In this document: positions 1 to 21,270 of the stretch, in pieces
Layout of the letters: the number at the start of each line of letters is the position of its first letter
How positions within the stretch are numbered: the stretch's first letter is position 1
From: a virus
Length of the DNA stretch: 21,270 bases
Strand: one strand, 5' to 3'
Virus record (IMG/VR): IMGVR_UViG_3300007539_000274
Location: 1-21,270 of that record
Notes under the pieces: generated by a model
What the model was told of the DNA's origin: nothing
Seen by the model: the letters and a program-made list of their open reading frames with translations, nothing else
The model's database searches: none
Position numbers and translations under genes: made by a program

Positions 1-132
1 TACTTCGAAACCAGCGGCGGTAGTCGAGCAGAGTACCTAGAATTAGTAGGATATACAGACTACACCGCCAGCAGCACCGTCACGGTTGCCAGCACCGACT
101 ACGATATAGTTGAAATTCAAGTAGAAGACTAA
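1..132 (+). CDS. C-terminal fragment of an upstream, probably structural, protein
   Basis: An open frame runs from the first base of the window to a TAA at 130-132, giving the last 43 residues of a protein whose start is outside the window. The fragment contains YFETSGGSRAEYLELVGY and ends in EIQVED; its second half alternates Thr/Ser/Val with acidic residues, as in a beta-strand-rich C-terminus. It is too short to assign to a family. The stop shares its last A with the ATG of the next gene (TAATG), the same junction used throughout the adhesin cassette, so it probably belongs to the same transcription unit and may also be a virion protein. That role is inferred from position only. Confidence 0.75.
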   Translation, partial: YFETSGGSRAEYLELVGYTDYTASSTVTVASTDYDIVEIQVED

Positions 133-3758: not shown

Positions 3759-4336
3759 TGGAAACAATACTGAACTACGAAAACTCGGCACCTCGCGGGC
3801 ATCTGGAGATCCTCAAACTTTACCCAGACGGTCGCGAGGAAGTTCATTTTTCTGAGCAGAATGTTATCACCTCAGGCATGGGCCATACGCTTCTCAAGGC
3901 TTTCTCCAGTCCTGCGGTGGATAATATTTCAGGATTTCAGATCGTATACTTTCAGCTAGGCGTGTCTGGGGCGTCGAGCCTTCAGGTCTCGGGCACAGGA
4001 CAACTTTCCTCTGCCCTAGCGTCAGGGGATTACGGCACCGCCAACTTCCAACTAAGCATTCATGATCTAAGCTCAGGCACGCCAGCCGCAGACCAAGCGT
4101 TCGGAGTAATCCCGTTCCCTTATATCAAGAAGATCAGCCCAACTCGTGTGATGTATCAAATCTTTGTGGGGGATCAAGCTTGCGAAGGAGAAACACTCAA
4201 TGAGATCGGTCTGTTCAGCCGAAACCCTGACGGCTCTGCGACCGATGGTAGCTACTTATGCGCCTATAGGTATTTTACACCGTTAGAGAAGAAGGACAGC
4301 TTCTCTGTGCTATTCCGATGGACAATTGAATTCTGA
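3758..4336 (+). CDS. Small virion/fibre-associated protein (192 aa), compact relative of the upstream giant
   Basis: The N-terminal strand-turn-strand contains GREEVHFSEQNVITSGMGHT. The C-terminal segment reads ETLNEIGLFSRNP, then LCAYRYFTPLEKKDSF and a final FRWTIEF. In my recollection this pattern (an 'E-x-N-x-I-x-x-G' start and an 'EIGLF...YRxFTPLxK...FxWxI' end) recurs in uncharacterised tail- or fibre-associated proteins of phages, but I cannot name a family. It starts at ATG 3758, within TAATG at the end of the 1208-aa gene, and ends in TGATG with the first spike gene. A GGAG about 15 nt upstream is too far for a good ribosome site, so coupled reinitiation is likely. It probably forms a compact adaptor or head of a fibre. 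The shared ends with the 1208-aa protein suggest the same attachment site or a mixed oligomer (inference). Confidence 0.75.
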   Translation: METILNYENSAPRGHLEILKLYPDGREEVHFSEQNVITSGMGHTLLKAFSSPAVDNISGFQIVYFQLGVSGASSLQVSGTGQLSSALASGDYGTANFQLSIHDLSSGTPAADQAFGVIPFPYIKKISPTRVMYQIFVGDQACEGETLNEIGLFSRNPDGSATDGSYLCAYRYFTPLEKKDSFSVLFRWTIEF

Positions 4337-8121: not shown

Positions 8122-11100
8122 TGAACAGGTTATATGAATACTATGAGGCTTCTGGAGGTTCGCAAGTCATTGACACGAACTATGTTGATGTATTTCATTA
8201 TGACCCAAGCACGTTTTATAACTACGAGCAAGACAACTCGTCAATCACAACCCTAGAGTCTCGCTACGACTATCTCAAACAGTTCGCGGGATTTCCTGGC
8301 AGTCAGGAATACTCTGGCGTTACCCTTGTTGTTTCCTCTTCTGCGGCTACAGACCCTAGCGCAGGCGTCTATCAAACAGCGCAGGAAGCTGTTGATGCGC
8401 TGCCGAGGATTCTAAACTATCCTGTTCTTATCGAGATCGCAAGTTACTACGAGCTTGGCGCACTCTCTCTCGTTGGCATTACCTGTGAAGGACGAGGCGC
8501 TATTGAAATTCGGGGACTGAACTACGCCTCAGATACTGAAGCGCAGGTTAGCGGAACCTTTACTCGTGACGGCGTAGTTTCAATTCTGTCCGTGGAATCC
8601 ACTGCCTTGCAGCAAAGTATCTTAAATGCCAGCAGCACTAGAACAGGAGATTCTACCTTTGACGCTTCGCTCTGGGCGTCTGGAAGCCGCGCATTTTCTC
8701 AGCTATCGCCTGATTCGCAGAAAGAATGCCAGCAGTGTGAGTTTATGGCGTCATCTTATTCCACGCCCGGTGGAAGCAAGTTCGCTTTTGGCTTTAGTAG
8801 CGGACCTTCAACTTTCTCAACTGGAGGGTATACAGTCATCGCGGGCGCGGATCCAGTCGTGAGTGCTTCAATTACTCCCTCTTCAAACGACACAAGTGCT
8901 AATCTGATAGAGTTGCGTAATACGGTACAGGCGGGGGATACTGCAACTGCTCTTCTTTATGGATCTTTCTTTAGTTCGATTTCTATCCGTGATTGTAATC
9001 GAGTAAAACTAAAAGGTATTTTAATTGACGGTTTCGATAATGTAGGAACATCGGCAACTTACAGCGCAGACGTAGGACTTAAACTAAACAACTCCGATGT
9101 TTTGTTAGAGGATTTTGCCGTAGCGCGCTGCCGAACGAACGGCATCCTTGCGACTAATAGTAAAATTAGTTCGGCTGGGTCTCTGGTTGTTCAGAGAATT
9201 GCTAAGGTTGATGATAGTGTTCTGGACTCTGAGGGTCGTGGGGCTGGAATTAACCTTTACAATTCAAAACTTGTTTTTGATACATCTTCTGTTTCGCGCG
9301 CAGGGCGTCATATGCGTATTGTAAGTGACGGTATGGAGATAGGTATTAATGCAACTAATTCTCTTATCTGTGGCGGAACTCGCGATCAAGAGAGCACTAA
9401 TACGTACTCTAAGAATGCGGGAGGCAGCGACACAATCACTGCTCACCTTCAAACCACCCGACATAAACTAGGACTCAAGCTTAAAAACTCCGTTCTGGAT
9501 TTCGATGGGCGCTTAGGCGCTTTCCTTAACCTCTCAGGCGTTAAGGCAGATCACTCAAAGATCTGCCTCCCCCAGTTCAGCGTAGACGATAACCGAGACT
9601 ACGGCTTCAAGCTAAACTCATCTGATCTTCTGTACGGTAAGCATGCAGATTTCATTGGACAGTTTGGAGGCACTTCTGATAACGTGTCTGGCTTTCAGTT
9701 CTTCCATTGTGATTACAATGGCATCAACGTTATCGCGGAAAATAACTCTAATATCGCTGTACACCCTGATGTAGAACTCTTTTCTAATGTCGGGTCCTGG
9801 GGAGGTAACACTCCGCTAGATTCTTCTGATACTGATGTGTCGGCTTATTCGTTTATGAGAAACGGAGGTCTACCAGGAAATCAGCCAGCGCCCGCGATCA
9901 CATTAGACAGCAACTCACGAGGGCATATCATTGGCCTTGCATACACGGGAAACTCTTTAAGCTCCGTGCGCCAGGGTGCAGCGGCTCTCGTAACTAGAAG
10001 CTCTAACCTTGTTCTTCAAGGCTTCTCGGACAGGTGGACAGCCATTACCTCGAATGATGTTGTAGATAGCGCGAAGGAACTTAGGTATCTTTATGTATCC
10101 ACTCCTCTATACGCGAAAGGATCGTCCAAGATTAGTTTCATCGGGCCAACCAAAATTTCGCGTTGGGGCGTTGATGCTCTATGCGAGGATAACTCCGAGA
10201 TCTATTTTGGACCGCCTACCGAACTTATCAATGGCTTGGATACAGCTAAGTTTGGCCTTGAGTCTTCGGCCAACCACACCCAAGTAGAGCTTCACTCTAG
10301 TCGCGCTTGTTTAGTTGCATCAAAAGACTCTAAAATTAGAATGTTTGGTCTTGGTGCGTCCGCTGATACCTCATCCTCATACGGCCCAATCGTTGAGAGT
10401 AACAGGTTTATCGGGGCAACGTCGGGCGGTTACATGGCGTTCTTCCCTAATGCTTTCTCAGTGGCTACTAACTTAAGAGCAACAGACAGAGCGGTCGTCC
10501 TTGGGGATGATCTTCGACGTTTCCAAAGAGACTCAGGGCTCGTGGCAGACATCTCTGAGCAGCCTAGTGGAAGCACGGGCGGAATGTGTGTTCGTGCCGT
10601 TGACGGTAGCGACGTAGATGTTGAGCTAGTTAATTTCAAGTTTGGAATGCCCGCCTCCTCCGTGTCAGGAGTGATGTATAACTGGCACGGATCGGGCACC
10701 GAGTTCATTGACGATATGAACAACTTTGGCCCCGCTTCCTTCACCACGGACACTTGTTGGATCGCGGATCAGTGTTGTATCTGCCCGGGTGACACTACGA
10801 CTTCGCAAACTACTACTACTACTACCGCTGGTGGAGGACCCACGACTTCAAGTCCTACAACTACGCCTCCCACCACCACAACCACTACATCACTTCCACC
10901 TCCCACCACGACAACTACTACTACAACTACAACTACAACCACTACTACACCTTCAACCCCCTCCACAACAACCACTACTACAACCCCCTCCACAACCACA
11001 ACTACTACAACCACTACTACAACCACAACTACTACAACCACTACTACACCCCCAACTACTACAACTTCAACCCCCTCCACAACAACCACTACTACAAGCC

Positions 11101-12218
11101 CAACAACCACTACTACAACCACTACTACACCCCCAACTACTACAACTTCAACCCCCTCCACAACAACCACTACTACAACCACGACAACTACTACAACCAC
11201 TACTACAACTACAACCACTACTACAACCACTACTACAACTACTAGCGTTATTGAACCTACCCCGACCACGCCGGGCGAGGCTGGCTCCCCAAACCCGTTT
11301 GAAGGGGGAGGCAGCCAGTTCGCTTACGCTGAAGATGGGGATTATCTTACAGCAGACGACTTCGTACTCTCAGGCTTTGGTTCTAGGATTCATATCTGGA
11401 ATATTTCTAATGATTCTCGTCTTCGAGTTTTTAGAACATTCTTAAATGGTAATGATACAAAAACTGAAAGCGTAAACAATAACTGGCACGGTCCAACTGG
11501 TCGGTGGTGGAACGGGGCAGCGTGCGACTACTATGGAAAATATGGATTTGCCACAGAGAATAAGTATACTTCATCACAGTTTGATAACCATGGCCCATTC
11601 CGTCTAATGGTTGGAGGCGACGGTGATCTAAAAACTCTCGAAGAGACCTCTTATGCTTTAAGCGGTTCAGGAACTTATATCTTAACTGAAACCTCTTCTC
11701 TAGATGGTGGTTCGCCTTATGACCAAGTAAACGCGCAAGGTTATCAGATGCCTGCGGATTATGCTTACAGCTTAAGCGATATTACTTTCGCTCAAGCAGT
11801 AGGAGATTATGATTTTACTGATCTCCCGACGTATAGCTACACCTCGGCACTACCCGCTTTTGGCAGAGGGCTCGTAGGATATTACCAGGCTCCGGGTAAG
11901 AATAACGGGCTAGTAACCCACGCAAGAATGACTGAAGGTACGCCTCTAAAGTGGTACGATGGACAGCTTCACCCAGGGTTTGCTATCCCTCCTCTTCGCC
12001 TTGACTGGGAAGGGTATTTCAATAACAGGCTTGATGAGTCTGCTGCATCTCTGTTTGCAAACGCCAAGCATGCAGCCAGTAAGAAAGTAAACTTACTATC
12101 CATTCACAAGAGCACAGATACTGAAGGCGGTATCGCTAGAGATACGGATACTTTCCTAACTTCCTTTGGAGTTGGTGTGAGATCACTAAATATATTTGAA
12201 CTGAATCAGTTAGTATAA
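8121..12218 (+). CDS. Parallel beta-helix spike protein 2 with giant poly-Thr linker (1365 aa)
   Basis: This is a paralogue of the preceding spike along its whole length. The N-terminus matches (RLYEYYEASGGSQV versus PLYEYFDVTGGGQT), followed by the shared motif at residues 27-57 (FYNYEQDN). The helix entry aligns (GVTLVVSSSAATDPSAGVYQ) and the coil repeats resemble each other (VKLKGILIDG, GLKLNNSDVLLEDF, GLKLKNSVLDFDG, FSVDDNRDYGFKLNSSDLLYG). A Cys cluster (C879, C885, C886, C888) lies before the linker. The linker, residues ~892-1042, is almost wholly Thr with Pro/Ser breaks. The C-terminal domain keeps the spike 1 signature: over the 26 residues around HGPTGRWWNGAACDYYGK I count 3 differences. 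The gene begins in TAATG with no visible ribosome site. The pair is best read as a tandem duplication in which the docking and C-terminal ends were kept while the helix and linker diverged. It is likely a homotrimeric spike or adhesin, by analogy with tailspikes. Confidence 0.85.
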   Translation: MNRLYEYYEASGGSQVIDTNYVDVFHYDPSTFYNYEQDNSSITTLESRYDYLKQFAGFPGSQEYSGVTLVVSSSAATDPSAGVYQTAQEAVDALPRILNYPVLIEIASYYELGALSLVGITCEGRGAIEIRGLNYASDTEAQVSGTFTRDGVVSILSVESTALQQSILNASSTRTGDSTFDASLWASGSRAFSQLSPDSQKECQQCEFMASSYSTPGGSKFAFGFSSGPSTFSTGGYTVIAGADPVVSASITPSSNDTSANLIELRNTVQAGDTATALLYGSFFSSISIRDCNRVKLKGILIDGFDNVGTSATYSADVGLKLNNSDVLLEDFAVARCRTNGILATNSKISSAGSLVVQRIAKVDDSVLDSEGRGAGINLYNSKLVFDTSSVSRAGRHMRIVSDGMEIGINATNSLICGGTRDQESTNTYSKNAGGSDTITAHLQTTRHKLGLKLKNSVLDFDGRLGAFLNLSGVKADHSKICLPQFSVDDNRDYGFKLNSSDLLYGKHADFIGQFGGTSDNVSGFQFFHCDYNGINVIAENNSNIAVHPDVELFSNVGSWGGNTPLDSSDTDVSAYSFMRNGGLPGNQPAPAITLDSNSRGHIIGLAYTGNSLSSVRQGAAALVTRSSNLVLQGFSDRWTAITSNDVVDSAKELRYLYVSTPLYAKGSSKISFIGPTKISRWGVDALCEDNSEIYFGPPTELINGLDTAKFGLESSANHTQVELHSSRACLVASKDSKIRMFGLGASADTSSSYGPIVESNRFIGATSGGYMAFFPNAFSVATNLRATDRAVVLGDDLRRFQRDSGLVADISEQPSGSTGGMCVRAVDGSDVDVELVNFKFGMPASSVSGVMYNWHGSGTEFIDDMNNFGPASFTTDTCWIADQCCICPGDTTTSQTTTTTTAGGGPTTSSPTTTPPTTTTTTSLPPPTTTTTTTTTTTTTTTPSTPSTTTTTTTPSTTTTTTTTTTTTTTTTTTTPPTTTTSTPSTTTTTTSPTTTTTTTTTPPTTTTSTPSTTTTTTTTTTTTTTTTTTTTTTTTTTTTSVIEPTPTTPGEAGSPNPFEGGGSQFAYAEDGDYLTADDFVLSGFGSRIHIWNISNDSRLRVFRTFLNGNDTKTESVNNNWHGPTGRWWNGAACDYYGKYGFATENKYTSSQFDNHGPFRLMVGGDGDLKTLEETSYALSGSGTYILTETSSLDGGSPYDQVNAQGYQMPADYAYSLSDITFAQAVGDYDFTDLPTYSYTSALPAFGRGLVGYYQAPGKNNGLVTHARMTEGTPLKWYDGQLHPGFAIPPLRLDWEGYFNNRLDESAASLFANAKHAASKKVNLLSIHKSTDTEGGIARDTDTFLTSFGVGVRSLNIFELNQLV
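10795..11248 (+). repeat. Low-complexity ACN tract encoding a ~150-residue poly-threonine linker
   Basis: The tract is built from ACA/ACT/ACC triplets with rare ACG, interrupted by CCC/CCT (Pro), TCA/TCC (Ser) and one GGTGGAGGA (Gly) patch. The final pure run is 28 Thr codons. Mixed synonymous codons show that it is not a simple triplet microsatellite. The opposite strand and the +1 frame read through it as long Val-rich and Leu/Gln/Pro-rich frames, which are artefacts. The peptide would be extended and flexible or rod-like, separating the beta-helix from the C-terminal domain. Confidence 0.95.
11028..11178 (+). repeat. Perfect 70-bp tandem direct repeat (period 81 bp) inside the poly-Thr tract
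   Basis: Bases 11028-11097 and 11109-11178 are identical by direct comparison; the offset is 81 bp, exactly 27 codons. Each copy encodes Thr runs with the same PPTTTTSTPSTTTTTT core. Unequal recombination or slippage between the copies would change linker length in frame. Confidence 0.9.
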
Positions 12219-13945
12219 TGGCAAACATTAACAGAGCAATCAGGCTTTATCAGCCGAACGATCCTTATTATTGGCAAGTCGATAACTTGCCTCTTACTGA
12301 TTTATTAGATAACGACATTGTTCTTGAAGAGCGTCTCGGCGCTCTAGAAGCGACCGTAAGAGGTTTTGGAGATAGCAACAAAGGAGCTTTCCCTTTCACA
12401 GCATTGGCCGATCTAAAGGCATGGGTTGAGCCTACAACGGGAGCAACCGAAGATTTTGGAAAGGTTTACGTTCGTCCTGGAAAATTTAACGCCCGCATGC
12501 AGCTTCCCGCGAGTCGAGAAAGTGGTTGGCGAATGATGCGAGATAGCGATGCTAACTTCAACAACACCTCTTTCGATGGAACCCAGGGACTAAATTCCAC
12601 GACACTTGCGGACGATTTTGTTCGCTTTACCCGAGGCGTTGGCCGTACCTCCGTAGTGGAACTCTATCAGAACAGCGACGGCTCTGATAAATCCGTCGTG
12701 ATTGAGTCTTTTGATCCTTCGGAGTTCAACGCCAATAGTGCGCCTGCGGAACGTCTGGATCTAGTTTACATTAAAGCCACAGGCGCGCTGGATACCGATC
12801 ATACAAATATCGGCATTCCACTAGCGTCGGTTGGCATTATCAAAGGCGCGTATTTCAGGACAGACGAAGCTGCGGGAGTTCAAGCTAACGGAAGCAGGTT
12901 TGAGACTGAGACTGGGCGTTTGGCGGGTCGTATGACTGGCATGGCATCCTCGGAGATTACTACTGGTACGAACTTCGGCAGCGTACCTTCGCCCGACGAC
13001 CTTACGAACTTTGCATGGCACCCTCAAGGCGGTGGCCGAACATCTCAGGGCGTCATTCTAGGTCAGCAGGTAGAAACACAAGCTGCATTCACGCTTCCCG
13101 TCGCTTACGTCCGAGTTCCTCAAGGGTATGTTACGGGACAGCCAATCCCTATTGAGAACGTACTTGATATTCGTCCGTTCCTTCGTAGCACTGAGCTTAC
13201 CTACAACGAGCGCGCTGCAATCCTCACTTCTAATAACCCGGCTGGTTCGAACCCGTTTGTAACTGATTCGCGTCTGATGTTTGAGGTCGATCGAATCGAC
13301 CAGAAAGTTAGTGAGCTTGAGGGTAAGGTTAATCAAAACACCGCGAATGTAGACGCCCTCAATAATACGGTAACTGAGGTCGTGGAGGATGTAACTCAGC
13401 TTAAGGTAGATGTTCAGGGCACTGCACCTGGACCTACTCCGAATGGTCTAAACCATGAAGGGCGTATTGCGGCTCTGGAGAACTCAGTGGGCGGCGGTAT
13501 TTCGATTCCCGTAGAAAGGCATAAGTTCCTACCCACGCAAGAGGTTGTATTTCAATTTGGAAGGGTTAGTAACTTGGGTACTGCCGCCAATCCTAGGGAG
13601 TGGGATATTACTACTAAGATCCCTCCTTTTGATCGTCAAGGAATTGTGGCCGTGCAGTTTAGAATTCTTAGTGACGGAGGAGGTAATGATACCGACGACG
13701 TTAACCGAGTATACATGCAGGGAGGGTCTCTCCCGTTCCGACTAATTTCGATGTGGGGAGTCGCACAGTCGGGCGGAGATCTTCGAAGGAATTATGGAGG
13801 TGTCAATACTTTCTACGCCCCTGTAAATAAATCACTTGCTAACGGCACCGTAGTTCTACGTATTCAGACCTATGCAACCGGAAGCGATGATGTTAACCAC
13901 ACCTTAATTATTGATGGCTACATTACTACGGAATATAACTCTTAG
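12218..13945 (+). CDS. Fibre/adaptor protein with coiled coil and predicted beta-rich C-terminal tip (575 aa)
   Basis: Residues 11-41 (YQPNDPYYWQVDNLPLTDLL, then LEERLG) carry the motif shared with both spikes. Residues ~55-350 form a mixed beta domain with no recognised family. Residues ~354-400 are a clear coiled coil (VDRIDQKVSELEGKVNQ, VDALNNTVTEVVEDVTQLKV), followed by a Gly/Pro hinge and a C-terminal ~150-residue beta-rich domain (VVFQFGRVSNLG ... VVLRIQTYATG ... LIIDGYITTEYNS). A docking peptide, shaft and distal beta-domain are typical of trimeric phage fibres. The gene starts within TAATG after spike 2 with no clear ribosome site, and its end is overlapped by the next gene. I infer that it shares an attachment site with the two spikes and may connect them to the virion. 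Confidence 0.8.
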   Translation: MANINRAIRLYQPNDPYYWQVDNLPLTDLLDNDIVLEERLGALEATVRGFGDSNKGAFPFTALADLKAWVEPTTGATEDFGKVYVRPGKFNARMQLPASRESGWRMMRDSDANFNNTSFDGTQGLNSTTLADDFVRFTRGVGRTSVVELYQNSDGSDKSVVIESFDPSEFNANSAPAERLDLVYIKATGALDTDHTNIGIPLASVGIIKGAYFRTDEAAGVQANGSRFETETGRLAGRMTGMASSEITTGTNFGSVPSPDDLTNFAWHPQGGGRTSQGVILGQQVETQAAFTLPVAYVRVPQGYVTGQPIPIENVLDIRPFLRSTELTYNERAAILTSNNPAGSNPFVTDSRLMFEVDRIDQKVSELEGKVNQNTANVDALNNTVTEVVEDVTQLKVDVQGTAPGPTPNGLNHEGRIAALENSVGGGISIPVERHKFLPTQEVVFQFGRVSNLGTAANPREWDITTKIPPFDRQGIVAVQFRILSDGGGNDTDDVNRVYMQGGSLPFRLISMWGVAQSGGDLRRNYGGVNTFYAPVNKSLANGTVVLRIQTYATGSDDVNHTLIIDGYITTEYNS

Positions 13946-14390
13946 TGTTTGTTTAATGCTAACTCCTGCATGCCAGTCCCTTGAAACCATGCTTTATGGT
14001 GCAGGAGGCGCTGCTGCTGGATCCGTCGTTGGTCCTGGGGGCGCTGCTGCTGGCGCGGCAGTAGGTATCGGGGCTTCGCAACTACAGCAGGCCGAACGTG
14101 CTAATGTTGATCTTAAAAAGCAGGCGCAACAGAATATTGCGGCTCAGATTCCTCAAAGCCCGTGGCAAGCTTTCGTATCCAGCCTGAGTGCATTACTCCA
14201 TACTTTGGGTTGGTGGTACGTGATTATCTTTATTCTCGTACCCCTTGTAACGAAGCGAGGAAGAGCCTGGGCAAAGAATTTTATCAGTCTATCGGATACA
14301 GCAAGTAAAAAAGAAGTAGACGAATATACGAACCGACTAAATAAACTAGAGGGAATGATTTCCACTCTCGATAAGGAACAGGAACAATGA
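13914..14390 (+). CDS. Small membrane protein with lipoprotein-like N-terminus and glycine zipper (158 aa)
   Basis: I take ATG 13914 rather than the TTG at 13911; ATG 13956 is another option but removes the signal-like segment. None has a good Shine-Dalgarno. The first 32 nt overlap the end of the 575-aa gene. Residues 4-19 are hydrophobic after Arg6 and end in LTPAC20, a lipobox-like site, although Pro at -2 is atypical. Residues 29-55 are a glycine zipper (AGGAAAGSVVGPGGAAAGAA). Residues ~56-78 are a Gln/Ala-rich helix, residues ~98-112 a second membrane segment (WWYVIIFILVPLV) followed by KRGR, and the C-terminus (~130-158) is a charged helix. Periplasmic loop and cytoplasmic tail is the simplest topology. 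Holin or spanin-like, superinfection-exclusion or membrane-assembly roles are all possible; none is supported specifically. Confidence 0.7.
   Translation: MATLLRNITLSVCLMLTPACQSLETMLYGAGGAAAGSVVGPGGAAAGAAVGIGASQLQQAERANVDLKKQAQQNIAAQIPQSPWQAFVSSLSALLHTLGWWYVIIFILVPLVTKRGRAWAKNFISLSDTASKKEVDEYTNRLNKLEGMISTLDKEQEQ
14007..14053 (+). repeat. 14-bp direct repeat GGCGCTGCTGCTGG (14007-14020, 14040-14053)
   Basis: The two copies are identical and 33 bp apart (11 codons). They encode the two GGAAAG units of the glycine zipper in the membrane protein and suggest that the zipper grew by internal duplication. Confidence 0.8.
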
Positions 14391-14950
14391 AATACCTAAA
14401 CAACGAATCGCAATTCACTCGCGTTTCCGATGCACACGCTAAAAGCCTCATGGAGAGCGCGGGCTATGAAGTGCCCTCCGAGGAGGAAGTTCACGTTGAC
14501 GTATATGCTTTCGAAGATGCTCGCTTCGCCCTGACCGAAGAGGTCGTTGAGGCTGAAGACGGTCTTCACTACATTCGTCTTCAGGAGCTTGATGAAACCT
14601 TCACCGTCTCACTTGATGAGAGTGGCGAAGAAGTCCTCGTTGAGTTCGTTGAGTTCGATGAAGTTGATTACATCCTCGAAGGTGTTTTCGAAGACGGCGA
14701 CGGCAATCTTTATGCTTGCATGCTTTCCGAGTCCGACTTCGCTGATGATGAAGAAGTTGACGAGGCATACGACGGCGATATGAAGAAGGAAAAAATGATG
14801 CCCGGCAAGCCCAAGCCAGGCATGGACAAGCCAGGTATGAAGGACAAGAAGAAGGACAAGATGAAGGCTATGATGGCCGACAAGATGAAGGCTAAGATGG
14901 GCGACAAGCCCAAGCCAGGCATGTCCGACGACGACGGCGACGAGGACTGA
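14387..14950 (+). CDS. Acidic prohead-core-like protein with Lys/Met/Pro tail (187 aa)
   Basis: Residues ~25-130 are extremely acidic (VPSEEEVHVDVYAFEDARFA, EEVLVEFVEFDEVDYILEG, FADDEEVDEAYDGD). Residues ~132-180 switch to Lys/Met/Pro/Gly repeats (KPKPGM, DKPGMKDKKKDKMKAMM), and the end is acidic again (DDDGDED). Position and composition recall T4 gp67 (PIP), a small acidic core protein encoded just before the protease region, but I do not see sequence identity good enough to name it. L-x-E-type sites that the prohead protease could cut are present (for example LEG- and LTE-containing segments). The start overlaps the previous stop as ATGA at 14387-14390, with AGGAACA just upstream as ribosome site. 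The likely role is internal scaffold or core degraded or packaged during maturation (inference). Confidence 0.75.
   Translation: MKYLNNESQFTRVSDAHAKSLMESAGYEVPSEEEVHVDVYAFEDARFALTEEVVEAEDGLHYIRLQELDETFTVSLDESGEEVLVEFVEFDEVDYILEGVFEDGDGNLYACMLSESDFADDEEVDEAYDGDMKKEKMMPGKPKPGMDKPGMKDKKKDKMKAMMADKMKAKMGDKPKPGMSDDDGDED
14806..14923 (+). repeat. 19-bp direct repeat in the acidic core gene (14806-14824, 14905-14923)
   Basis: Both copies read CAAGCCCAAGCCAGGCATG and encode KPKPGM. They are 99 bp apart, so recombination between them would remove or add exactly 33 codons in frame. The segment between them holds further near-repeats (DKPGMKDKK, KMKAMMADKMKAKM). Confidence 0.9.
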
Positions 14951-14954
14951 AGAC

Positions 14955-15497
14955 ATGGATAAGAGTATCATGGCAATGGCTGATGATATTCTTGGGGGTG
15001 CCCTTAGCAGCCCGTCCAAGGCTCAGTCACAACTTTCTAACCCTTACAACGAACCGGAGCTTCCTGAGCTTTCGGACAAGCTACGCGAGAGTATGATGAA
15101 CGAATCCACAAAGCATCTCAATGAGGAGCAATCTTATGACGAGGCCGCTCCTAAGAAAAAGATGAAAGCGGTCGCCAAGAAGAAGACGGCCAAGAAGAAG
15201 TCGTGCGGCTCTTCCCGTCTGGGGGAGGCGCAGGTTCAGATCCTTCTACAGGCTCGCGATATTCTTCGTGAAGTTACGGGCGTTGGCGGTATCGGAGTCG
15301 GTCCTCAGATGACCGCTTCTCGCGCCTACAGCACTCACGGAGCTGATATGGGCAAGGACACTGTAAAGATCGAGCCCGTGGACAAGGCTCTTAGCAAGGT
15401 TGAGAAGGGCAAGGCTAAGAAGAAAAAGAAGGTCAAGAAGGAGTCTTTTGAACTCTTCATCGACGCTATTCTTAACGAAACCCAGGAGATTAAGTGA
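14955..15497 (+). CDS. Lysine-rich prohead-core-like protein (180 aa)
   Basis: This protein has two strongly basic patches, residues ~66-82 (APKKKMKAVAKKKTAKKK) and ~148-162 (KVEKGKAKKKKKVKK). They flank a more ordinary central part (LGEAQVQILLQARDILREV, then GVGGIGVGPQM). The N-terminal third is acidic/polar (NEPELPELSDKLRESMMNE) and the C-terminus is an amphipathic helix (SFELFIDAILNETQEIK). It lies 4 nt after the acidic protein and directly before the protease, where T4 has the small core protein gp68; the match is by position and charge, not by clear sequence identity. A GAGG lies upstream of the ATG. The basic patches could bind the acidic partner encoded next door, or DNA, inside the prohead (inference). 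The stop TGA overlaps the protease ATG (TGATG). Confidence 0.7.
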   Translation: MDKSIMAMADDILGGALSSPSKAQSQLSNPYNEPELPELSDKLRESMMNESTKHLNEEQSYDEAAPKKKMKAVAKKKTAKKKSCGSSRLGEAQVQILLQARDILREVTGVGGIGVGPQMTASRAYSTHGADMGKDTVKIEPVDKALSKVEKGKAKKKKKVKKESFELFIDAILNETQEIK

Positions 15498-16105
15498 TGC
15501 TTATTAGAGATATCTTTTCGTTCGGAGAAATCTCCCTTCTTTCCGAAGGGAAGTCTGGGGGACCCATGAAGTTCAAAGGTATCTTCTCTGAGGCCGAACG
15601 TCCGAACGGCAACAAGCGCATCTATAATCGCCCCCTTCTTGAGCGTGAAGTAAAGAAGCTTCAGCCGAAGATCGAATCTCGCCAACTTCTTGGTGAGCTT
15701 GACCACCCCTCCGATGAGATTGTTCACCTTGGAAACGTCTCTCACGTTATCACCAAGCTTTCAATGCAAGGTAACCACGTAATGGGAGAGGGTGAGGTTC
15801 TGAACACACCCGCCGGAAAAGTTCTTACAGAGCTTCTGAGGGCGGGTGTTAAGTTAGGTATCTCATCGCGAGGTACGGGTTCGATGGACTTAGACGAGTC
15901 TGGTTCGAATTACGTCGTAGGTGAGAACTACAACATGATTACTTTCGACATGGTGTCGGAGCCGTCTAGCCAGGACGCTTTCCCTTCCCTTTCCGAGAGT
16001 AAACAACTAAACGAACTCCGTGAACCTATCGTGGAAGAGCTTGAGCATTTTCACAATGATCGGATTTACATCACTGCACTCAAGCGGCGGCTGGGCAAAC
16101 TTTAA
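15497..16105 (+). CDS. gp21: Prohead core protease, T4 gp21-like serine peptidase
   Basis: This protease cleaves scaffold, core and capsid proteins at (L/I)-x-E sites during prohead maturation. Family features visible in the sequence are the N-terminal strand KFKGIFSEAERPNGNKRIYN, the GELDHP motif with the likely catalytic His (H70 counted from the ATG at 15497), and the SRGTGS segment preceded by GIS with the candidate Ser (S123/S124). An Asp in ITFDMVSEPS follows (D151); I list it as the candidate third residue with less certainty. The length, ~202 aa, is close to T4 gp21. An upstream GTG at 15494 is in frame, but the ATG is preferred because it forms the TGATG junction used elsewhere and has GGAG 7-8 nt before it. 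The gene sits after two core-like genes and before scaffold and capsid, the same order as T4 67-68-21-22-23. Confidence 0.93.
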   Translation: MLIRDIFSFGEISLLSEGKSGGPMKFKGIFSEAERPNGNKRIYNRPLLEREVKKLQPKIESRQLLGELDHPSDEIVHLGNVSHVITKLSMQGNHVMGEGEVLNTPAGKVLTELLRAGVKLGISSRGTGSMDLDESGSNYVVGENYNMITFDMVSEPSSQDAFPSLSESKQLNELREPIVEELEHFHNDRIYITALKRRLGKL

Positions 16106-16110
16106 AAATA
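16103..16110 (+). promoter_or_regulatory. T4-late-promoter-like element TAAAAATA before the scaffold gene
   Basis: This octamer matches the T4 late consensus TATAAATA at 7 of 8 positions. It overlaps the gp21 stop codon, begins the only non-coding gap upstream of the scaffold and capsid genes (16106-16163), and lies about 54 nt before the scaffold ATG. In T4, genes 22 and 23 also have late promoters. Whether this phage uses a gp55-type sigma factor is unknown, and matches of this quality occur by chance in AT-rich sequence. Confidence 0.35.
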
Positions 16111-16163
16111 AAATACACTCGCATCAGCCGTATAGTACATACTCGTAGCAACCCAAGATTATC

Positions 16164-16763
16164 ATGAGCACAAATCTCGATAAATTAGTTGAAGCACTCC
16201 CCGAAGGTCTCACCGAGGCTGGAATCGAGGAGGTAGCTTCTTTACTCGATGAGGTCGTTGAGGAGCGTGTTGCGGAAGAGGTTGTCATGATTGAGACGAA
16301 GGTCAAAGCTTTCCTTCGTACCAAGATTGAGGATCTCAAAGAATCTGCGCGGCAGGAACTTGAGTCGGAAGACAAGATGGTTCGTGCCTACAAGGTGTTC
16401 GAAGCCATCAAGACCATCGTCGCTGGTGAGATTGACGGCGAAGACTTCGGTAACGCCGTCGCAGTTCATGAAGCAGCAAACGCGAAGTTGCAGGATGAGC
16501 TTGAAGCCGTCCAAACGCAACTCAACGAATCACTTAAAACAGTCAGCCTCCTGGAGTCCAAGTTGGACCATCAAGAGACTGAACTTAGCCAACTCTCAGA
16601 GGCACTTGTTGTTGAACAGGAAAAAGCCGAAGTTCCTTTCAAGTCCTCAGAGTCGGCGGTCATGATTACCAACGAGAATCATGAATCCCAAGGTCTTCCC
16701 GATTCGGCTCGGGAGAATTTCTTCCTGAATGAGGACGTAATTCGACTGTCCAAACTTCAATAA
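16164..16763 (+). CDS. gp22: Prohead scaffolding core protein, T4 gp22-like
   Basis: The 199-aa protein is acidic and mostly helical, with long heptad-like stretches (EEVASLLDEVVEERVAEEVV, KLQDELEAVQTQLNESLKTV, then LLESKLDHQETELSQLSEAL). This is typical of the T4 scaffold, which forms the internal core around which the shell assembles and is then digested by the protease. T4 gp22 is longer (about 269 aa), so this is a compact version. Several L-x-E triplets are available as cleavage sites. It lies between protease and capsid genes, the canonical position. The C-terminus (DSARENFFLNEDVIRLSKLQ) is the likely shell-contact end, by analogy. The stop TAA forms part of the TAAGGAG ribosome site of the capsid gene, which links their translation. 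No strong Shine-Dalgarno is seen before its own ATG. Confidence 0.9.
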   Translation: MSTNLDKLVEALPEGLTEAGIEEVASLLDEVVEERVAEEVVMIETKVKAFLRTKIEDLKESARQELESEDKMVRAYKVFEAIKTIVAGEIDGEDFGNAVAVHEAANAKLQDELEAVQTQLNESLKTVSLLESKLDHQETELSQLSEALVVEQEKAEVPFKSSESAVMITNENHESQGLPDSARENFFLNEDVIRLSKLQ

Positions 16764-16769
16764 GGAGCT
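16763..16769 (+). promoter_or_regulatory. Strong Shine-Dalgarno AAGGAGC of the major capsid gene
   Basis: This is the clearest ribosome site in the window. It begins at the last base of the scaffold stop and is 8-9 nt from ATG 16778. It fits the high expression required for the shell protein and contrasts with the adhesin genes, most of which have none. Confidence 0.8.
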
Positions 16770-16777
16770 TTTAAATT

Positions 16778-18376
16778 ATGTTAAACAAAGAAACATCGCA
16801 AACTCTAGTTGATAAGTGGAGTCCGATTCTCGAAGGTGTCAGCGACTCGTACACTCGTGAGACTACCGCCGTCCTACTTGAGAACCAAGCTCGTCATATT
16901 CTGAACGAGTCTCAAAAGGATGGAATGCTCTCCGAGGCGACCCCAGGCGCAGGGCCAACTACCGTTGGCTCCATTGGCACGTTCCAGAAATTTGCCTTCC
17001 CACTTGTTCGTCGGGTCTTCCCCGAACTCATTGCTAACAAAGTTGTTGGCGTTCAGCCCATGCAGGGTCCTGTTTCCCAGATCTTCTATCTTGGATACGA
17101 CCGCCTGACTGATGAGCGTCGTCAGACTATCTACGGCAAGTACGACCTTACCTACGCTCAGCGGACCATCCTTGACGCAAGCTCTCAGTACGCTACTGGG
17201 TCCTCGCTCGATGACCTTGTTGATACTGGCGAGCTTTCGGCGCTGAACACCACGAGCGGCCTGCTCTCTGGTGACGTTTCGCGTCCTTCTGCTACCGTTG
17301 GTGGTCAAATTGCTTCGTTCCCCCTTTCCTCGACGACTGTCGGCTTCGACGTTTCGAGCGGTGAGGTTCTTGGTAAAACAATTAACTTCCCCACGGGACT
17401 TAGCACACTTGCAGATATCTCTGCATTTGACGCTACTCCAAACGGAGTAATCCCTGAGATTAACTTCCATATCGAGCAGCAGCCCGTTACTGCCCGTACT
17501 CGTAAGTTCCGCGCTCTGTGGACTCTTGAGGCGGCTCAGGACCTTCGTGCTTACCACAACCTCGATCTTGAGCGTGAACTTACTGACCTTCTCGGTAAGG
17601 AAGTTGCCCTTGAGATTGACCGTGAGCTTATCGAGGATATGCGCGGTATTGCTTACGACATCACTGGTGGTGGATTCGAGCGCAGCCTGATGGACATGCC
17701 TAACAGCAACCTGATTACGGGTGCTGGTCGAAATGGTCAGGCTTTCGATCCTAGCTCGTTCACCTATGACATCACTGGTGCTGGACAGGCTCCAGGCGGC
17801 GGTCTTTACCAGACCCGCAAGAACGTCTTCTTCGTAGACTTTGCTTCGACGGCGCTCAACCTTGCTCCCCGTCACGTTGGTCAGGCTTACGCGAACCTTC
17901 TCGCTACCCTGAACTTCGCTTCGCAGGACATCTACAAGACGACCTACCGTGGTGCTGGTAACTACATCATCACCTCTCCGTTCGTCGCTGCTATCCTTAA
18001 CTCTGCCTCCAAGCTTGAGGGCGGTGTCAGGGCTGGTAACTGGGAAGGTCAGCTTGGCGCAAACATCAACTACGCTGGTAAACTCCAGGGCATGTTCGAT
18101 GTCTACGTCGATCCTCTCTACCCCGATGACGAAATTCTCATGGGTTACAAGGGTAGCTCCCCAATGGACGCGGGCTTCGTGTACTCTCCGTACATCCCAC
18201 TCCAGATGCTTCCCACGATCACTGATCCTGAGACCTTCCAGCCCCGCAAGGGTCTGCTCACTCGCTACGGCAAGGCTGCTGTGACTCCCGAGTCTCGCTT
18301 CTTCCGTATCATCCGAATCATCGGTGCGGGTAGCAACTTCCTCTTCCGTCCGGGTGCTGTTGGTGGTAACTCCTGA
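16778..18376 (+). CDS. gp23: Major capsid protein, T4 gp23-like
   Basis: The 532-aa protein is close in length to T4 gp23 (521 aa). It begins with a helical delta-like region (residues ~1-53: NKETSQTLVDKWSPILEG, VLLENQARHILNE), followed by LSE/ATPGAG. This L-x-E site corresponds to the gp21 cut that frees mature gp23, so the mature chain probably starts at A54. The family core follows with FAFPLVRRVFPELIANKVVG and VQPMQGPVSQIFYLGY, then PEINFHIEQQPVTARTRKFR, LWTLEAAQDLRAYHNLDLER, and late in the chain YVDPLYPDDEILMGYKGSSP and YSPYIPLQMLPTITDPETFQ. It forms the hexamers of the HK97-fold shell. Strongly C-ended codon choice (CTT/CTC, GTT, CGT, AAC) differs from the adhesin genes and fits high expression. 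A strong intrinsic terminator follows. Confidence 0.97.
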   Translation: MLNKETSQTLVDKWSPILEGVSDSYTRETTAVLLENQARHILNESQKDGMLSEATPGAGPTTVGSIGTFQKFAFPLVRRVFPELIANKVVGVQPMQGPVSQIFYLGYDRLTDERRQTIYGKYDLTYAQRTILDASSQYATGSSLDDLVDTGELSALNTTSGLLSGDVSRPSATVGGQIASFPLSSTTVGFDVSSGEVLGKTINFPTGLSTLADISAFDATPNGVIPEINFHIEQQPVTARTRKFRALWTLEAAQDLRAYHNLDLERELTDLLGKEVALEIDRELIEDMRGIAYDITGGGFERSLMDMPNSNLITGAGRNGQAFDPSSFTYDITGAGQAPGGGLYQTRKNVFFVDFASTALNLAPRHVGQAYANLLATLNFASQDIYKTTYRGAGNYIITSPFVAAILNSASKLEGGVRAGNWEGQLGANINYAGKLQGMFDVYVDPLYPDDEILMGYKGSSPMDAGFVYSPYIPLQMLPTITDPETFQPRKGLLTRYGKAAVTPESRFFRIIRIIGAGSNFLFRPGAVGGNS

Positions 18377-18400
18377 GTAATCCCCACTAACTAACTAATA

Positions 18401-18438
18401 AGAGAGCCGTGCTTTTTCAAGTGCGGCTCTCTTTATTT
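18401..18438 (+). terminator. Intrinsic terminator after the capsid gene
   Basis: AGAGAGCCG (18401-18409) pairs with CGGCTCTCT (18424-18432). The stem extends inward through two G-U pairs and CTT/AAG to a UUUC tetraloop (18415-18418), giving 14 continuous pairs counting the wobbles. TTTATTT follows. It lies 25 nt after the capsid stop and separates capsid expression from the neck genes. Confidence 0.9.
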
Positions 18439-18463
18439 CTCTATATACATTGGAGGATATGTT

Positions 18464-18700
18464 ATGAAATATATTAACACCCAACAAACGCCCGTTCGGT
18501 TATGGACATCCAAAGGCGTAATTACACTGGACGGTCTTTGCACCCTTGAACTGGATGAGCTTGTTTCAACTCCTAGCTTCGTTAAAGTTGAAGGCGCTAA
18601 AGCCAAAGCCCCTGTTGTAACCGAAACTACCACTGAAGAAACCACCGTAGAAAAAACGACAAAAGCTCGCCGCCGCAAGACCACTACTGAGAAGGAGTGA
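18464..18700 (+). CDS. Small beta-rich protein with Thr/Glu/Lys tail (78 aa)
   Basis: No family is recognised with certainty. Residues 1-45 look like a short beta-barrel or sandwich (MKYINTQQTPVRLWTSKGVI, TLDGLCTLELDEL). The second half is low complexity: VTETTTEETTVEKTT followed by a basic KARRRK and TTTEKE. It follows the capsid terminator, has a good TTGGAGG ribosome site 8-9 nt from the ATG, and precedes neck gene 13. Position suggests a capsid accessory or decoration protein, or a neck-associated factor (inference). Its N-terminal pattern recalls the 62-aa protein at 20927. The flexible charged tail could bind DNA or a partner. Confidence 0.75.
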   Translation: MKYINTQQTPVRLWTSKGVITLDGLCTLELDELVSTPSFVKVEGAKAKAPVVTETTTEETTVEKTTKARRRKTTTEKE

Positions 18701-18704
18701 GTAG

Positions 18705-19577
18705 ATGAGTTATAGGCCCTTCAAACCTCAAACTAGGTATGGCAATACTTTCGGTCAAGTGAGCGGAAGTTATTCGATCCTAGAGCAATGGGACTATCCT
18801 GGCGATGTCGATTACGATAATATGAATCGTCGTCGATTTAAGAATGAGGCCCATTTCTCAGATTTCTATGAGTCGATTAAAGATTTTGTTTTAGCGCGCT
18901 TAGGCTTTCCTGTTGTTCGAGTAGAGCTTACGGATTTTCAGATCCAGACGGCAATTGACGAGGCTATCTCAAAGCTAGACTACCATGCACCTGACTGGTG
19001 TACTCAATTCTGCACCTTTGCAACTAGGAGCGGTGTTTCTTTGTACGAACTACCTTCGGTAGTAACAAATAACTTTAGAAACGCAGTATACCGAAAGAAT
19101 CTTTTAAGTCTCAGCCAAGGTAATGGAACTCTAGAGTTTGATTTCTTTATCAAGTACTTTCAAGATAACTTCTTATTCAGGGATTTCTCTGTAGGAGATT
19201 ACTATGTCACCATCTCACACCTGGAGATGATGAGAAAGATTCTCGGTAACGACGGTACGTTTAATATTGTAAACAATAAATATCTAAACATCGCACCTCC
19301 TCCCACCATTGCTGAAGAAGTTCTTGTGGAGTTCAAGGCGATTGATAGTACTTCTCTGCACCCATACTTTGTTAACTGGATTCAGCGATTCAGCCTTGCT
19401 ATCTGCAAGGTGATCCTGGGACAGATTCGCGGTAAGTATCAGCAGTTGCCTTCTCCTGCTGGAGGCGCGACGTTGAACGGCGATGCTTTGATAGAACAAG
19501 GCAATAAAGAGCAAGAGCAACTTGTCGAGCAGCTAATGACCGAGATTGAAGAGCCTCCCGCATTTAGTACCTTCTAA
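18705..19577 (+). CDS. gp13: Neck protein, T4 gp13-like (head completion)
   Basis: The 290-aa product is near T4 gp13 in size (309 aa). In T4, gp13 and gp14 form the neck that closes the DNA-filled head and prepares it for the tail. Supporting segments are the helical N-terminal part FSDFYESIKDFVLARLGFPV and VELTDFQIQTAIDEAISKLD, and the C-terminal block GQIRGKYQQLPSPAGGATLN followed by GDALIEQGNKEQEQLVEQL, a pattern I associate with gp13 homologues. The start ATG has GGAG about 9 nt upstream. The stop shares its last A with the next ATG (TAATG), which couples it to gene 14 and fits their joint assembly. Confidence 0.85.
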   Translation: MSYRPFKPQTRYGNTFGQVSGSYSILEQWDYPGDVDYDNMNRRRFKNEAHFSDFYESIKDFVLARLGFPVVRVELTDFQIQTAIDEAISKLDYHAPDWCTQFCTFATRSGVSLYELPSVVTNNFRNAVYRKNLLSLSQGNGTLEFDFFIKYFQDNFLFRDFSVGDYYVTISHLEMMRKILGNDGTFNIVNNKYLNIAPPPTIAEEVLVEFKAIDSTSLHPYFVNWIQRFSLAICKVILGQIRGKYQQLPSPAGGATLNGDALIEQGNKEQEQLVEQLMTEIEEPPAFSTF

Positions 19578-20131
19578 TGTCGAAAAGAAAACAGTTCAGA
19601 ACGAATCATGAAATCGTAGGGGACACCGCGTCGGAGTTCAACGATATGTTGAATCTATACGACCTGGAGAACCCCGACATTGAACTGTTTAATATGGTGG
19701 ACGACGAGCTTATTCGTCTTGGCGGCTCCAAGATTCTGCTGTATAAGTTTTTCCGGCGAGAGAGTATGGCTGACGATCTGTATGGAGAGGCTTCCCAGAA
19801 GACGATCTCTAATACCCCCGTCGTACTTCAAGGCCATTACGAGCCTCAGGCGTTAGAAGAAAACCTTACTGAGTTTGGCATCGAAGTTACTAGCGAGCAG
19901 ATCTTTACGTTTAACAAAAGTTATATCGAGAAACTTGTTGGACGCCCTCTCATCCCAGGAGATATTCTACAGCCTCAGTTCCAAAACCTCAAGTACGAAG
20001 TCTTCGAGGTTCAAGAAGATCAGTTCGATGTTTATGGCGTTTATCATCTAAGCTGTGCTGCAAGGGTCCTTCGCGACGATGAAGATATTCTTCGCACAGA
20101 TGAAGCTTTCCCGCAGGATGAGGTGTACTAA
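19577..20131 (+). CDS. gp14: Neck protein, T4 gp14-like (head closure)
   Basis: The 184-aa protein is shorter than T4 gp14 (256 aa) but shows the same features: DDLYGEASQKTISNTPVVLQ, then GHYEPQ, FGIEVTSEQIFTFN, GRPLIPGDILQPQFQNLKYE and VFEVQEDQFDVYG. This is the beta-barrel of head-closure or connector proteins with an 'R-P-x-x-GD' turn. It should form the ring below the portal together with gp13. Both ends use TAATG junctions, so translation of 13, 14 and 15 is coupled and probably stoichiometric. The assignment rests on motifs and on position between 13 and 15; the shorter length suggests loss of a peripheral region compared with T4. Confidence 0.8.
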   Translation: MSKRKQFRTNHEIVGDTASEFNDMLNLYDLENPDIELFNMVDDELIRLGGSKILLYKFFRRESMADDLYGEASQKTISNTPVVLQGHYEPQALEENLTEFGIEVTSEQIFTFNKSYIEKLVGRPLIPGDILQPQFQNLKYEVFEVQEDQFDVYGVYHLSCAARVLRDDEDILRTDEAFPQDEVY

Positions 20132-20871
20132 TGGCTGGCGCATACTGGACAATTGATGCGATCCGTGATGAGATGCAGGCATTGCGAGACACTGCAACGT
20201 TTCAAAAGCCTGATTTCTATCGCGCATTTACACGACGAATCAAAGAGCTTTTTGGCGACCTTCAAGTTTTGAAAGGCGATGAGACGCTGCGTACTGTAGA
20301 CATCATTTACGCCAACCCTGAGCGAGCCATCGCTAAGATCATGGAGGGTAAGTCTACTCAGCTACCTCTTCTGTCTTTGCAACTAGATGGCATTGAACTT
20401 GCCAATGATCGTAGAAAGCCCATGGAGGCTTTGGTCGAAAAAAAGTATTGGCTTTCTGATAAGCAGAGAGCCGTGCGTTACATGGCGCTTGCGCCTGTGG
20501 CAGCAAACTTATCCTTCGCTGTCAATATCTGGGGTAAGTACGTCGAAGAGGTGAACCAACTTACGGAGCAGGTACTTCTCAAGTTCCGTCCTAACCTTCC
20601 GATTGATATTCGACCTGATGAAGTCTACCAGTCCTTCATCAAGGATGTGTCTGATTCTTTTCAGGTAGACATTGGTGATAAAAAAGATCGCGTTCTCAAA
20701 AGGATCGTTCGTTTCAATGTGGAATCTTACATACCAAGCAAGGTTTTTAAGTTTACCAATACAGGAGAAATCGTTACGATGAACTACGAGGTCTACCTCG
20801 AAGAGACAAACGGTCTTGAGACATTGGAAAGTTTTCTAGGTAAAGGAGCCCCCTTGCCTAAATCAAGTTAA
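20131..20871 (+). CDS. gp15: Tail terminator / sheath stabiliser, T4 gp15-like
   Basis: T4 gp15 (272 aa) forms a hexameric ring on top of the tail tube and sheath and joins the neck. This 246-aa protein shows the family layout: an N-terminal helix (FYRAFTRRIKELFGDLQVL), a strand with VDIIYANPERA, a segment LPLLSLQLDGIELANDRRKP, then MALAPVAANLSFAVNIWGKY followed by VEEVNQLTEQVLLKFRP, where a membrane-like motif is really a core strand followed by the conserved helix. The C-terminal half (FKFTNTGEIVTMNYEVYLEE) is the predicted beta-domain. It begins in TAATG after gene 14 and is followed by a 55-nt gap with a late-promoter-like element. Confidence 0.85.
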   Translation: MAGAYWTIDAIRDEMQALRDTATFQKPDFYRAFTRRIKELFGDLQVLKGDETLRTVDIIYANPERAIAKIMEGKSTQLPLLSLQLDGIELANDRRKPMEALVEKKYWLSDKQRAVRYMALAPVAANLSFAVNIWGKYVEEVNQLTEQVLLKFRPNLPIDIRPDEVYQSFIKDVSDSFQVDIGDKKDRVLKRIVRFNVESYIPSKVFKFTNTGEIVTMNYEVYLEETNGLETLESFLGKGAPLPKSS

Positions 20872-20901
20872 AAAAATCTACGTTACCTGGACACTATCCT
20901 G

Positions 20902-20909
20902 TCTAAATA
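20902..20909 (+). promoter_or_regulatory. T4-late-promoter-like element TCTAAATA before the 62-aa gene and sheath
   Basis: This octamer matches TATAAATA at 7 of 8 positions. It lies in the 55-nt gap after gene 15, 18 nt before the next start codon, so the 5' leader would be short. It could drive the 62-aa gene and the sheath gene 18 as a separate late unit. A chance match cannot be excluded. Confidence 0.35.
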
Positions 20910-20926
20910 CAATAGAGGTAAATCTA

Positions 20927-21115
20927 ATGACCAATCACGTAAAAATCAAAAACCTAACTCACCAAGGTCTTGAGATTGTTGCACGCCAACCCTCTGGACA
21001 GTACGACCACATTTGGTTGGAGTCCAAGAAATCTGTCGTCATTCCCGCTAACGCCGTTACTCAACTCATTCGGAATATCGAGCAACGCCAAATGGTGAAG
21101 ATTACAAACGTCTAA
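20927..21115 (+). CDS. Small beta-rich protein upstream of the tail sheath (62 aa)
   Basis: The protein has no signal peptide or membrane segment. The order of segments is VKIKNLTHQGLEIVA, HIWLESKKSVVIPANAVTQL, and QRQMVKITNV: three or four beta strands around a short loop rich in charged residues. The pattern 'V-K-I-K-N-x-T-x-x-x-L-x-I ... S-V-V-I-P' recalls small uncharacterised proteins found beside T4-like structural genes and is similar in outline to the N-terminal half of the 78-aa protein at 18464. AGAGGT precedes the ATG. Its position between tail terminator and sheath suggests a tail or decoration accessory role, but no function can be assigned. Confidence 0.75.
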   Translation: MTNHVKIKNLTHQGLEIVARQPSGQYDHIWLESKKSVVIPANAVTQLIRNIEQRQMVKITNV

Positions 21116-21130
21116 TAGGAGAACACTAAA

Positions 21131-21270
21131 ATGCCCGCATATGTAAGCCCCGGAGTCTATGTAATTGAGAAGGACTGGTCAGACTACAGCCCCTCTCTAA
21201 ACTCAACAAACGTTGGTGTAATGGGTTTCGCCTCTCAAGGTCCTACCGGAAAGGCAACCCTCATCACCAA
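21131..21270 (+). CDS. gp18: Tail sheath protein, T4 gp18-like (N-terminal fragment)
   Basis: The first 46 codons are present and the gene continues beyond the window. The start reads MPAYVSPGVYVIEKDWSDYS, followed by LNSTNVGVMGFASQGPTGKA. 'SPGVYVxExDxS' and 'GxxGxAxxGPxGKAxLIT' are signatures of contractile sheath proteins, which form the contracting layer of the tail. A TAGGAGAACA ribosome site is 7-8 nt upstream. Its presence fixes the phage as a myovirus with a contractile tail and places the tail genes directly downstream of the neck genes. Confidence 0.93.
   Translation, partial: MPAYVSPGVYVIEKDWSDYSPSLNSTNVGVMGFASQGPTGKATLIT

Follow-up and report, generated by a model that had tools for sequence, protein, structure and literature searches.

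Neck genes after the capsid gene and a distant terminase-portal pair in an uncultured lineage of the T4 superfamily

The virus record IMGVR_UViG_3300007539_000274, all 21,270 bases of which form the window analyzed here, closes with a run of T4-type virion genes on the plus strand in the order 21-22-23-(78 aa)-13-14-15-(62 aa)-18. The bracketed items are the single open reading frames (ORFs), of 78 and 62 amino acids (aa), that lie between 23 and 13 and between 15 and 18. On the 5' side of 21 are three small ORFs and, further upstream, a large fiber-type cassette, and neither a terminase nor a portal gene is present in the 21,270-base window. The genes of the run are as follows.

15497 to 16105, plus strand: gp21 head maturation protease (PHROG 207, Pfam PF03420)
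16164 to 16763, plus strand: gp22-type scaffold, by position (conserved between 21 and 23 in relatives; no family or profile match)
16778 to 18376, plus strand: gp23 major capsid protein (PHROG 138, Pfam PF07068)
18464 to 18700, plus strand: ORF of 78 aa between 23 and 13 (no family match)
18705 to 19577, plus strand: gp13 head-tail adaptor, Ad2 (PHROG 211; hhalign to T4-type gp13)
19577 to 20131, plus strand: gp14 head closure protein, Hc2 (hhalign to Far-T4 gp14; predicted fold)
20131 to 20871, plus strand: gp15 tail terminator or sheath stabilizer (Pfam PF16724; hhalign)
20927 to 21115, plus strand: small ORF of 62 aa between 15 and 18 (conserved in relatives; no family match)
21131 to 21270, plus strand: 5' end of the gp18 tail sheath gene, truncated where the record stops (sequence and translation; full gene in the relative G002)

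The protease gp21 matched PHROG 207 (E value, 4.3e-49) and the Pfam family S77, PF03420 (1.1e-21); its ORF opens at a GTG at 15494, and the ATG at 15497 is the likely start. For gp23, the matches were PHROG 138 (7e-83) and Pfam Gp23, PF07068 (2.1e-76). A gp23-type capsid protein and an S77 prohead protease, both marks of the T4 superfamily, are encoded in the window. A type 2 neck is present as well. Its gp13 matched PHROG 211, "head-tail adaptor Ad2" (5.9e-21), and reached 98.5% in hhalign against T4-type gp13, while gp15 matched Pfam T4-gp15_tss, PF16724 (5.5e-14), and reached 96.4% against the T4-type family. The third neck protein, gp14, found no family in the PHROG and Pfam searches, and profile comparison by hhalign gave 90.8% with the gp14 of Far-T4 isolates and 2.4%, not significant, with T4-type gp14. 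Among PDB entries, its predicted fold (mean predicted local distance difference test score [pLDDT], 60.6) came closest to the T4 portal-neck-tail complex (E value, 1.8e-5). T4 gp13/gp14 complexes ranked fourth and fifth, other phage necks were among the following matches, and a sequence search of the PDB returned no neck protein. Predicted fold and Far-T4 profile together support its identity as gp14. The protein between 21 and 23 gave no match to T4 gp22 by hidden Markov model or hhalign, so the name gp22 denotes position only. The gp18 fragment has its ATG at 21131 and stays open to the record end, and the full gp18 of G002 is a tail sheath protein (PHROG 23, 2.8e-67). A gp20-type portal, a gp17 terminase, a gp18 sheath, and a gp19 tube protein are all present in relatives, the window carrying only the start of 18. 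An LSE|A motif at residues 51-53 of the window gp23 (16928-16936) lies near the site at which gp21 cuts T4 gp23, which suggests T4-type capsid maturation.

The arrangement in the window is real and conserved and reflects neither chance nor artifact. A scan of viral contigs (IMG/VR) with the window gp23 yielded 75 loci of 53-100% identity, many of which are near-copies and do not represent 75 independent cases. The marker order 21-22-23-13-14-15-x62-18-19 was kept on one strand in 75/75, for the markers that each locus holds. Gene 13 came after 23 in 72 of the 75 loci, the remaining 3 ending before 13; 15 and 18 were both present in 54, and 19 was reached in 31. Neither 17 nor 20 was found at any of the 75 gp23 loci. 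The original prediction for this DNA, made from the sequence alone, had read the same order, with 15 followed almost directly by 18, no terminase between them, and an adhesin cassette in place of a portal gene just upstream of the core genes. All of this was borne out. Gene 22 is placed by position only, a single 62-aa ORF separates 15 from 18, and the cassette consists of five ORFs that range from 192 to 1365 aa.

Because the window is the whole record, genes 16, 17, 19, and 20 were sought in relatives, and eight long ones were read in pieces to locate what the window lacks. In G002 (101.7 kb; gp23 82% identical to that of the window), genes 17 and 20, which have 16 bases in common, occupy 12.0-15.1 kb, and 21 starts at 55.4 kb. 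The interval from 20 to 21 contains x539, uvsW in the opposite orientation, a gp26-like hub gene (PHROG 150), an exonuclease gene, gp2, a tape-measure/lysin gene, 53, 25, 6, and fiber genes; 18 is followed directly by 19 (63.4-64.0 kb; PHROG 23 and PHROG 4542). Six contigs include 20 as well as 21 within a single run, and in all of them genes 17-20 sit together upstream of 21, at distances from the end of 20 to the start of 21 of 41.5, 40.3, 42.4, 35.8, 43.5, and 44.9 kb. The portals of the six are about 50% to 86% identical to the G002 portal. In a seventh contig, G005, 21-to-19 is found toward the start and 17-20-uvsW toward the end, an arrangement that a circular map would produce. The run in relatives thus reads 17-20-x539-uvsW(-)-gp26-like hub-tape measure-53-25-6-fiber/adhesin genes-21-22-23-13-14-15-x62-18-19, then replication genes, and its lineage-specific feature is the baseplate/fiber block between 20 and 21. 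Whereas 17, 19, and 20 were located in this way, gene 16 was identified in neither the window nor the relatives.

The order from 21 to 19 recurs in other phages. With a first profile set, built from the window's clade only, Microcystis phage Mel-JY01 read 17-20-21-23-13-14-15-18-19-hub (E values: 13, 6e-22; 14, 8e-6; 15, 6e-5; 18, 4e-63; 19, 2e-4), and Flavobacterium phage immuto read 17-20-21-23-13-14-15. Wider profiles, which also contain Mel-JY01 and immuto, gave 20-21-23-13-18-19-hub in Bacillus phage SP-15 and Listeria phage LIS04, where an annotated terminase stands before 20, and 20-21-23-13-14 in XacN1. A census of Far-T4 loci, made by scanning with the Mel-JY01 gp23 and covering the best 80 of at least 600 matches, had 13 after 23 in 36/36 loci reaching 13, with the other 44 stopping short of it; 31 loci hold 17 and 20, and the gap from 20 to 21 was 1.5-3.1 kb in 34/34 loci with both of these genes. 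The order given for T4 in the original prediction, 13-14-15 before 16/17 and then 18-19-20 and 21-22-23, was read in T4 itself, and S-RSM4, LIMEstone, and marine virus AG-345-L05 likewise have 13-14-15-16-17-18-19-20-21-(22)-23. This order of the Tevenvirinae, Kyanoviridae, and Ackermannviridae (13-14-15-16-17-18-19-20-21-22-23) is not that of the window clade. A small ORF (62-110 aa) lies 5' of the sheath gene in most clade loci (20927-21115 in the window), and similarly small ORFs also precede it in Mel-JY01, SP-15, and LIS04.

Trees of gp23 and gp20 were rooted on LIS04 (and SP-15), with T4 gp24 left out of the gp23 trees. In both, the window clade formed one branch, with support of 100/100 (gp23) and 100/99 (gp20), next to branches holding the Far-T4 isolates with RM378, the jumbo phages, and T4 together with cyanophages, Ackermannviridae, and Campylobacter phages. 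On the concatenated gp20+21+23 tree, the branching sequence was LIS04, then Far-T4, the window clade, the jumbo phages, and the T4 crown. The window clade shared a branch with the jumbo and T4 phages at supports of 99/99 (gp20) and 99/98 (concatenated). On all three trees, the clade lay outside T4, the cyanophages, the Ackermannviridae, the sampled jumbo phages, and three Far-T4 isolates. On this basis, the window represents a distinct uncultured T4-superfamily lineage with a deep branch of its own, and the divergent lineage suggested originally takes shape as a well-supported separate clade. Among the phages scored, neck position required one change on the gp23 and gp20 trees, on the branch that leads to T4, the cyanophages, and the Ackermannviridae, and since this change falls on the T4 side, the T4 order is probably derived. 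The 23-13-14-15-18 order, at first regarded as a mark of rearrangement in the window lineage, maps instead as the outgroup-side state. "Rearranged" does hold for the portal, with 17-20 36-45 kb from 21, but for the neck genes the polarity was probably wrong: their order is found also in Mel-JY01 and environmental Far-T4 viruses, in its first part in immuto, and in similar form in SP-15 and LIS04.

As the best explanation, we consider it likely that the window lineage keeps an inherited order, that the T4-side order is derived, and that the portal shift came about by a block swap. An older head-neck-tail order (21-22-23-13-14-15-18-19) would have passed to the window lineage, and the order of T4, cyanophages, and Ackermannviridae would go back to a block change that happened later, on their own stem branch. 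In the window lineage, a single exchange of the neighboring blocks 21-to-19 and hub-to-fiber may then have parted terminase and portal from the head genes, as judged relative to Mel-JY01, where the hub gene adjoins 19. In T4, virion parts assemble in trans, so that heads can be built whatever the order of the genes, and block swaps can be tolerated for this reason.

Several observations weigh against this interpretation. We infer the swap, its direction, and its single-step history from the end states that we observe. The root depends on LIS04 and SP-15, long branches of unsure place, and the gp17 tree came out unresolved. Approximately unbiased (AU) tests did not reject the window clade and Far-T4 as one clade (p, 0.225 for gp23, 0.096 for gp20, and 0.098 for the concatenated set). 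The one-change count leaves phiM9, RM378, SCTP-2, SNUABM_19, Phosso, F371, and CC_R7 unscored. Inside the T4 crown, phiM9 has 18-19-20-21-22-23 with 13-14-15 about 15 kb after 23, so the neck block moved more than once, and the Far-T4 isolate RM378 has scattered genes. Finally, XacN1 is without 15, 18, and 19 after 14 in the stretch read and has 17 further downstream, so the jumbo branch backs only part of the order.

The alternative that survives best, though we think it rather unlikely, is that the window derives from an ordinary Far-T4 phage, for instance of clade 2 in Roux 2015, which is seawater-only, and that its portal shift is a local variant. The AU tests leave room for this, the neck/tail order is common to both groups, and Roux 2015 (PMC4360716) includes a clade known only from seawater amplicons. 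However, the gp20 and concatenated trees join the window clade to jumbo and T4 phages. That source also describes Far-T4 genomes as having their portal and terminase genes close to that of the capsid protein and as resembling near- and cyano-T4 phages in organization, while in the window's clade 20 lies 36-45 kb from 21 in 6/6 contigs. A known group with this order as standard does exist, therefore, in Far-T4, but the window gp23 falls outside its isolates, even if the AU test on gp23 did not reject a single clade.

Less probable in our judgment is that the T4 order is the original one and that the window lineage shifted its neck genes to a position after 23, with terminase and portal lost from their former site. 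The 13-to-23 order is common to T4, S-RSM4, LIMEstone, and AG-345-L05 and so is old and stable, and the near-root placement of the window clade is uncertain. Yet neck after capsid is common to four branches (SP-15/LIS04, Far-T4, the window clade, and XacN1), for which one T4-side change suffices, and it agrees with the commonest tailed-phage order as given in PMC2147016. More doubtful still is convergence, in which linkage of genes for neighboring, interacting products was favored repeatedly. Blocks do move, as seen from gp14 lying elsewhere in two contigs and from the scattered genes of phiM9 and RM378, and six core-gene topologies are on record among T4 relatives (PMC2993671); against this, the run is kept in all 75 loci of its own clade and in the Far-T4 census, and one change on the tree is enough. 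An assembly error as the cause of the distance between 17-20 and 21 is very improbable. Every contig comes from a metagenome, and the window is itself fragmentary, but six contigs with portals as divergent as those described above have like layouts and similar distances.

Gene 14 adds a later layer to the history that we favor, in which the window lineage keeps the older order. In 17 clade loci with both 13 and 15 (L019-L024, L026, L046-L048, L050, L054, L055, L058, L066, L067, and L076), gp14 is not between them, and in several 13 and 15 abut. Contig G013 has its gp14, 44% identical to that of the window, at 101272-101802(-) (L107:1272-1802), 2.1 kb upstream of 17, and G017 has it at 54123-54656(-), about 4 kb upstream of 17. 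Between 13 and 15 of G013 there is now a 203-aa ORF (55943-56554(-); L104:15943-16554) with a NUMOD3 motif, which is a motif of homing endonucleases. On the gp23 tree, with loci whose gp23 is <380 aa left out, the position of gp14 needed two changes, or perhaps one. These positions indicate that gene 14 is still mobile in the window's clade, and with a homing-endonuclease-type ORF now standing in its former position, the relocation is an example in which the movement of a virion gene can be traced. Genomes rich in homing-endonuclease genes are also among the T4 relatives for which the six topologies were described (PMC2993671). In L034, L070, L025, and similar loci, the gp14 ORFs are much longer, about 350 to 814 aa, and seem to encode a head-closure protein with added domains.

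Taken as a whole, we lean slightly toward a scenario in which the neck-terminase-tail-portal-head order of T4 arose once, on the T4/cyanophage/Ackermannviridae branch. Far-T4, the window's new family-level lineage, and Thornevirus would keep the older order; one block swap would have torn 17-20 from the head genes in the window lineage, and gene 14 would later have followed to the terminase side in some members, possibly via homing endonucleases. This would give a polarity to the best-known virion gene map of phage biology, and if true, the order of T4 is the altered one. Moreover, the unlinking of portal and terminase from the prohead genes in a conserved lineage known from uncultured viruses bears on the old question of whether clustering matters for head assembly. 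Among the papers listed by searches of open-licence literature, we met no statement of a neck-after-capsid order for Far-T4 or of a derived T4 order, and gp13 by that name has no occurrence in the text of PMC4360716.

The rest of the window, upstream of 21, holds the following ORFs.

132 to 3758, plus strand: 1208-aa virion-type protein, first of the fiber/adhesin cassette (ORF; no Pfam match; homologs in the same place in relatives)
3758 to 4336, plus strand: 192-aa conserved cassette protein (ORF; homologs in relatives, that of G002 matching PHROG 5417, unknown function, E value 1.4e-4)
4336 to 8121, plus strand: 1261-aa fiber/adhesin-type protein (ORF; no Pfam match)
8121 to 12218, plus strand: 1365-aa fiber/adhesin-type protein with a long Thr-rich linker (ORF and translation; no Pfam match)
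12218 to 13945, plus strand: 575-aa fiber-type protein with a long helix and a beta-rich C terminus (ORF; alignment of 16; model pLDDT 59.3)
13911 to 14390, plus strand: 159-aa small protein, Gly/Ala-rich (ORF; no PHROG- or Pfam-based identity)
14387 to 14950, plus strand: 187-aa protein, acidic and then Lys/Met/Pro-rich, candidate prohead core protein (from its position before 21; no PHROG match)
14955 to 15497, plus strand: 180-aa Lys-rich protein, candidate prohead core protein (from its position before 21; no PHROG or Pfam match)

None of the five cassette ORFs matched Pfam, and a PDB fold search with the 575-aa protein was uninformative. Three successive fiber-type proteins (window 4336-13945) have a common N-terminal motif, FYNWEQDNLP-like, which suggests paralogs that dock on one site. 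Fiber/adhesin families are present in 28 of the 29 clade loci with more than 3 kb before 21. The two Lys-rich small ORFs before 21 are possibly prohead core proteins. Beyond the virion genes, G002 has a family A DNA polymerase split over two genes (67959-70925; L087:7959-8933 and L087:9384-10925), one for a protein of 324 aa that combines uracil-DNA-glycosylase and 3'-5' exonuclease domains and one for a polymerase of 513 aa. A link to RM378 through its split family A polymerase was dropped, as blastp of the G002 polymerase and exonuclease against the two RM378 genes tried gave no similarity. No host was indicated by the nearest phages on polymerase or by a search of genome contigs, in which no relative was found.

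Among known systems, Far-T4 is one of those closest to the window clade. Mel-JY01, immuto, and uncultured members have, like the clade, homologs of gp23, gp20, gp17, gp21, gp13, gp14, and gp15, with 13-14-15 after 23 and, in Mel-JY01, also 18-19. They differ in keeping 17-20 1.5-3.1 kb before 21 in the census loci instead of 36-45 kb away, and Mel-JY01 and immuto carry PhoH between 23 and 13, where the window has only the 78-aa ORF. Thornevirus (SP-15 and LIS04), with terminase-20-21-23-13-18-19-hub, is largely alike in order but very distant in sequence and has ribonucleotide reductase genes between 20 and 21; the profile search did not detect gp14 there and detected gp15 in SP-15 only. XacN1-type jumbo phages have, in XacN1, 20-21-23-13-14 on one strand, with many genes between 21 and 23. 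In T4, cyanophages (S-RSM4), and Ackermannviridae (LIMEstone), the head, neck, and tail proteins are homologous to those of the window, but unlike in the window lineage, the terminase is between neck and tail and the portal just before the core genes and 21. The commonest plan of tailed phages has a conserved order of head genes and then tail, baseplate, and fiber modules, with T4 a named exception (PMC2147016). The protease-scaffold-capsid-neck-tail order of the window clade fits the commonest order, and the clade departs from it in that terminase and portal do not directly precede the protease, its baseplate and fiber genes being placed between 20 and 21 and not after the tail.

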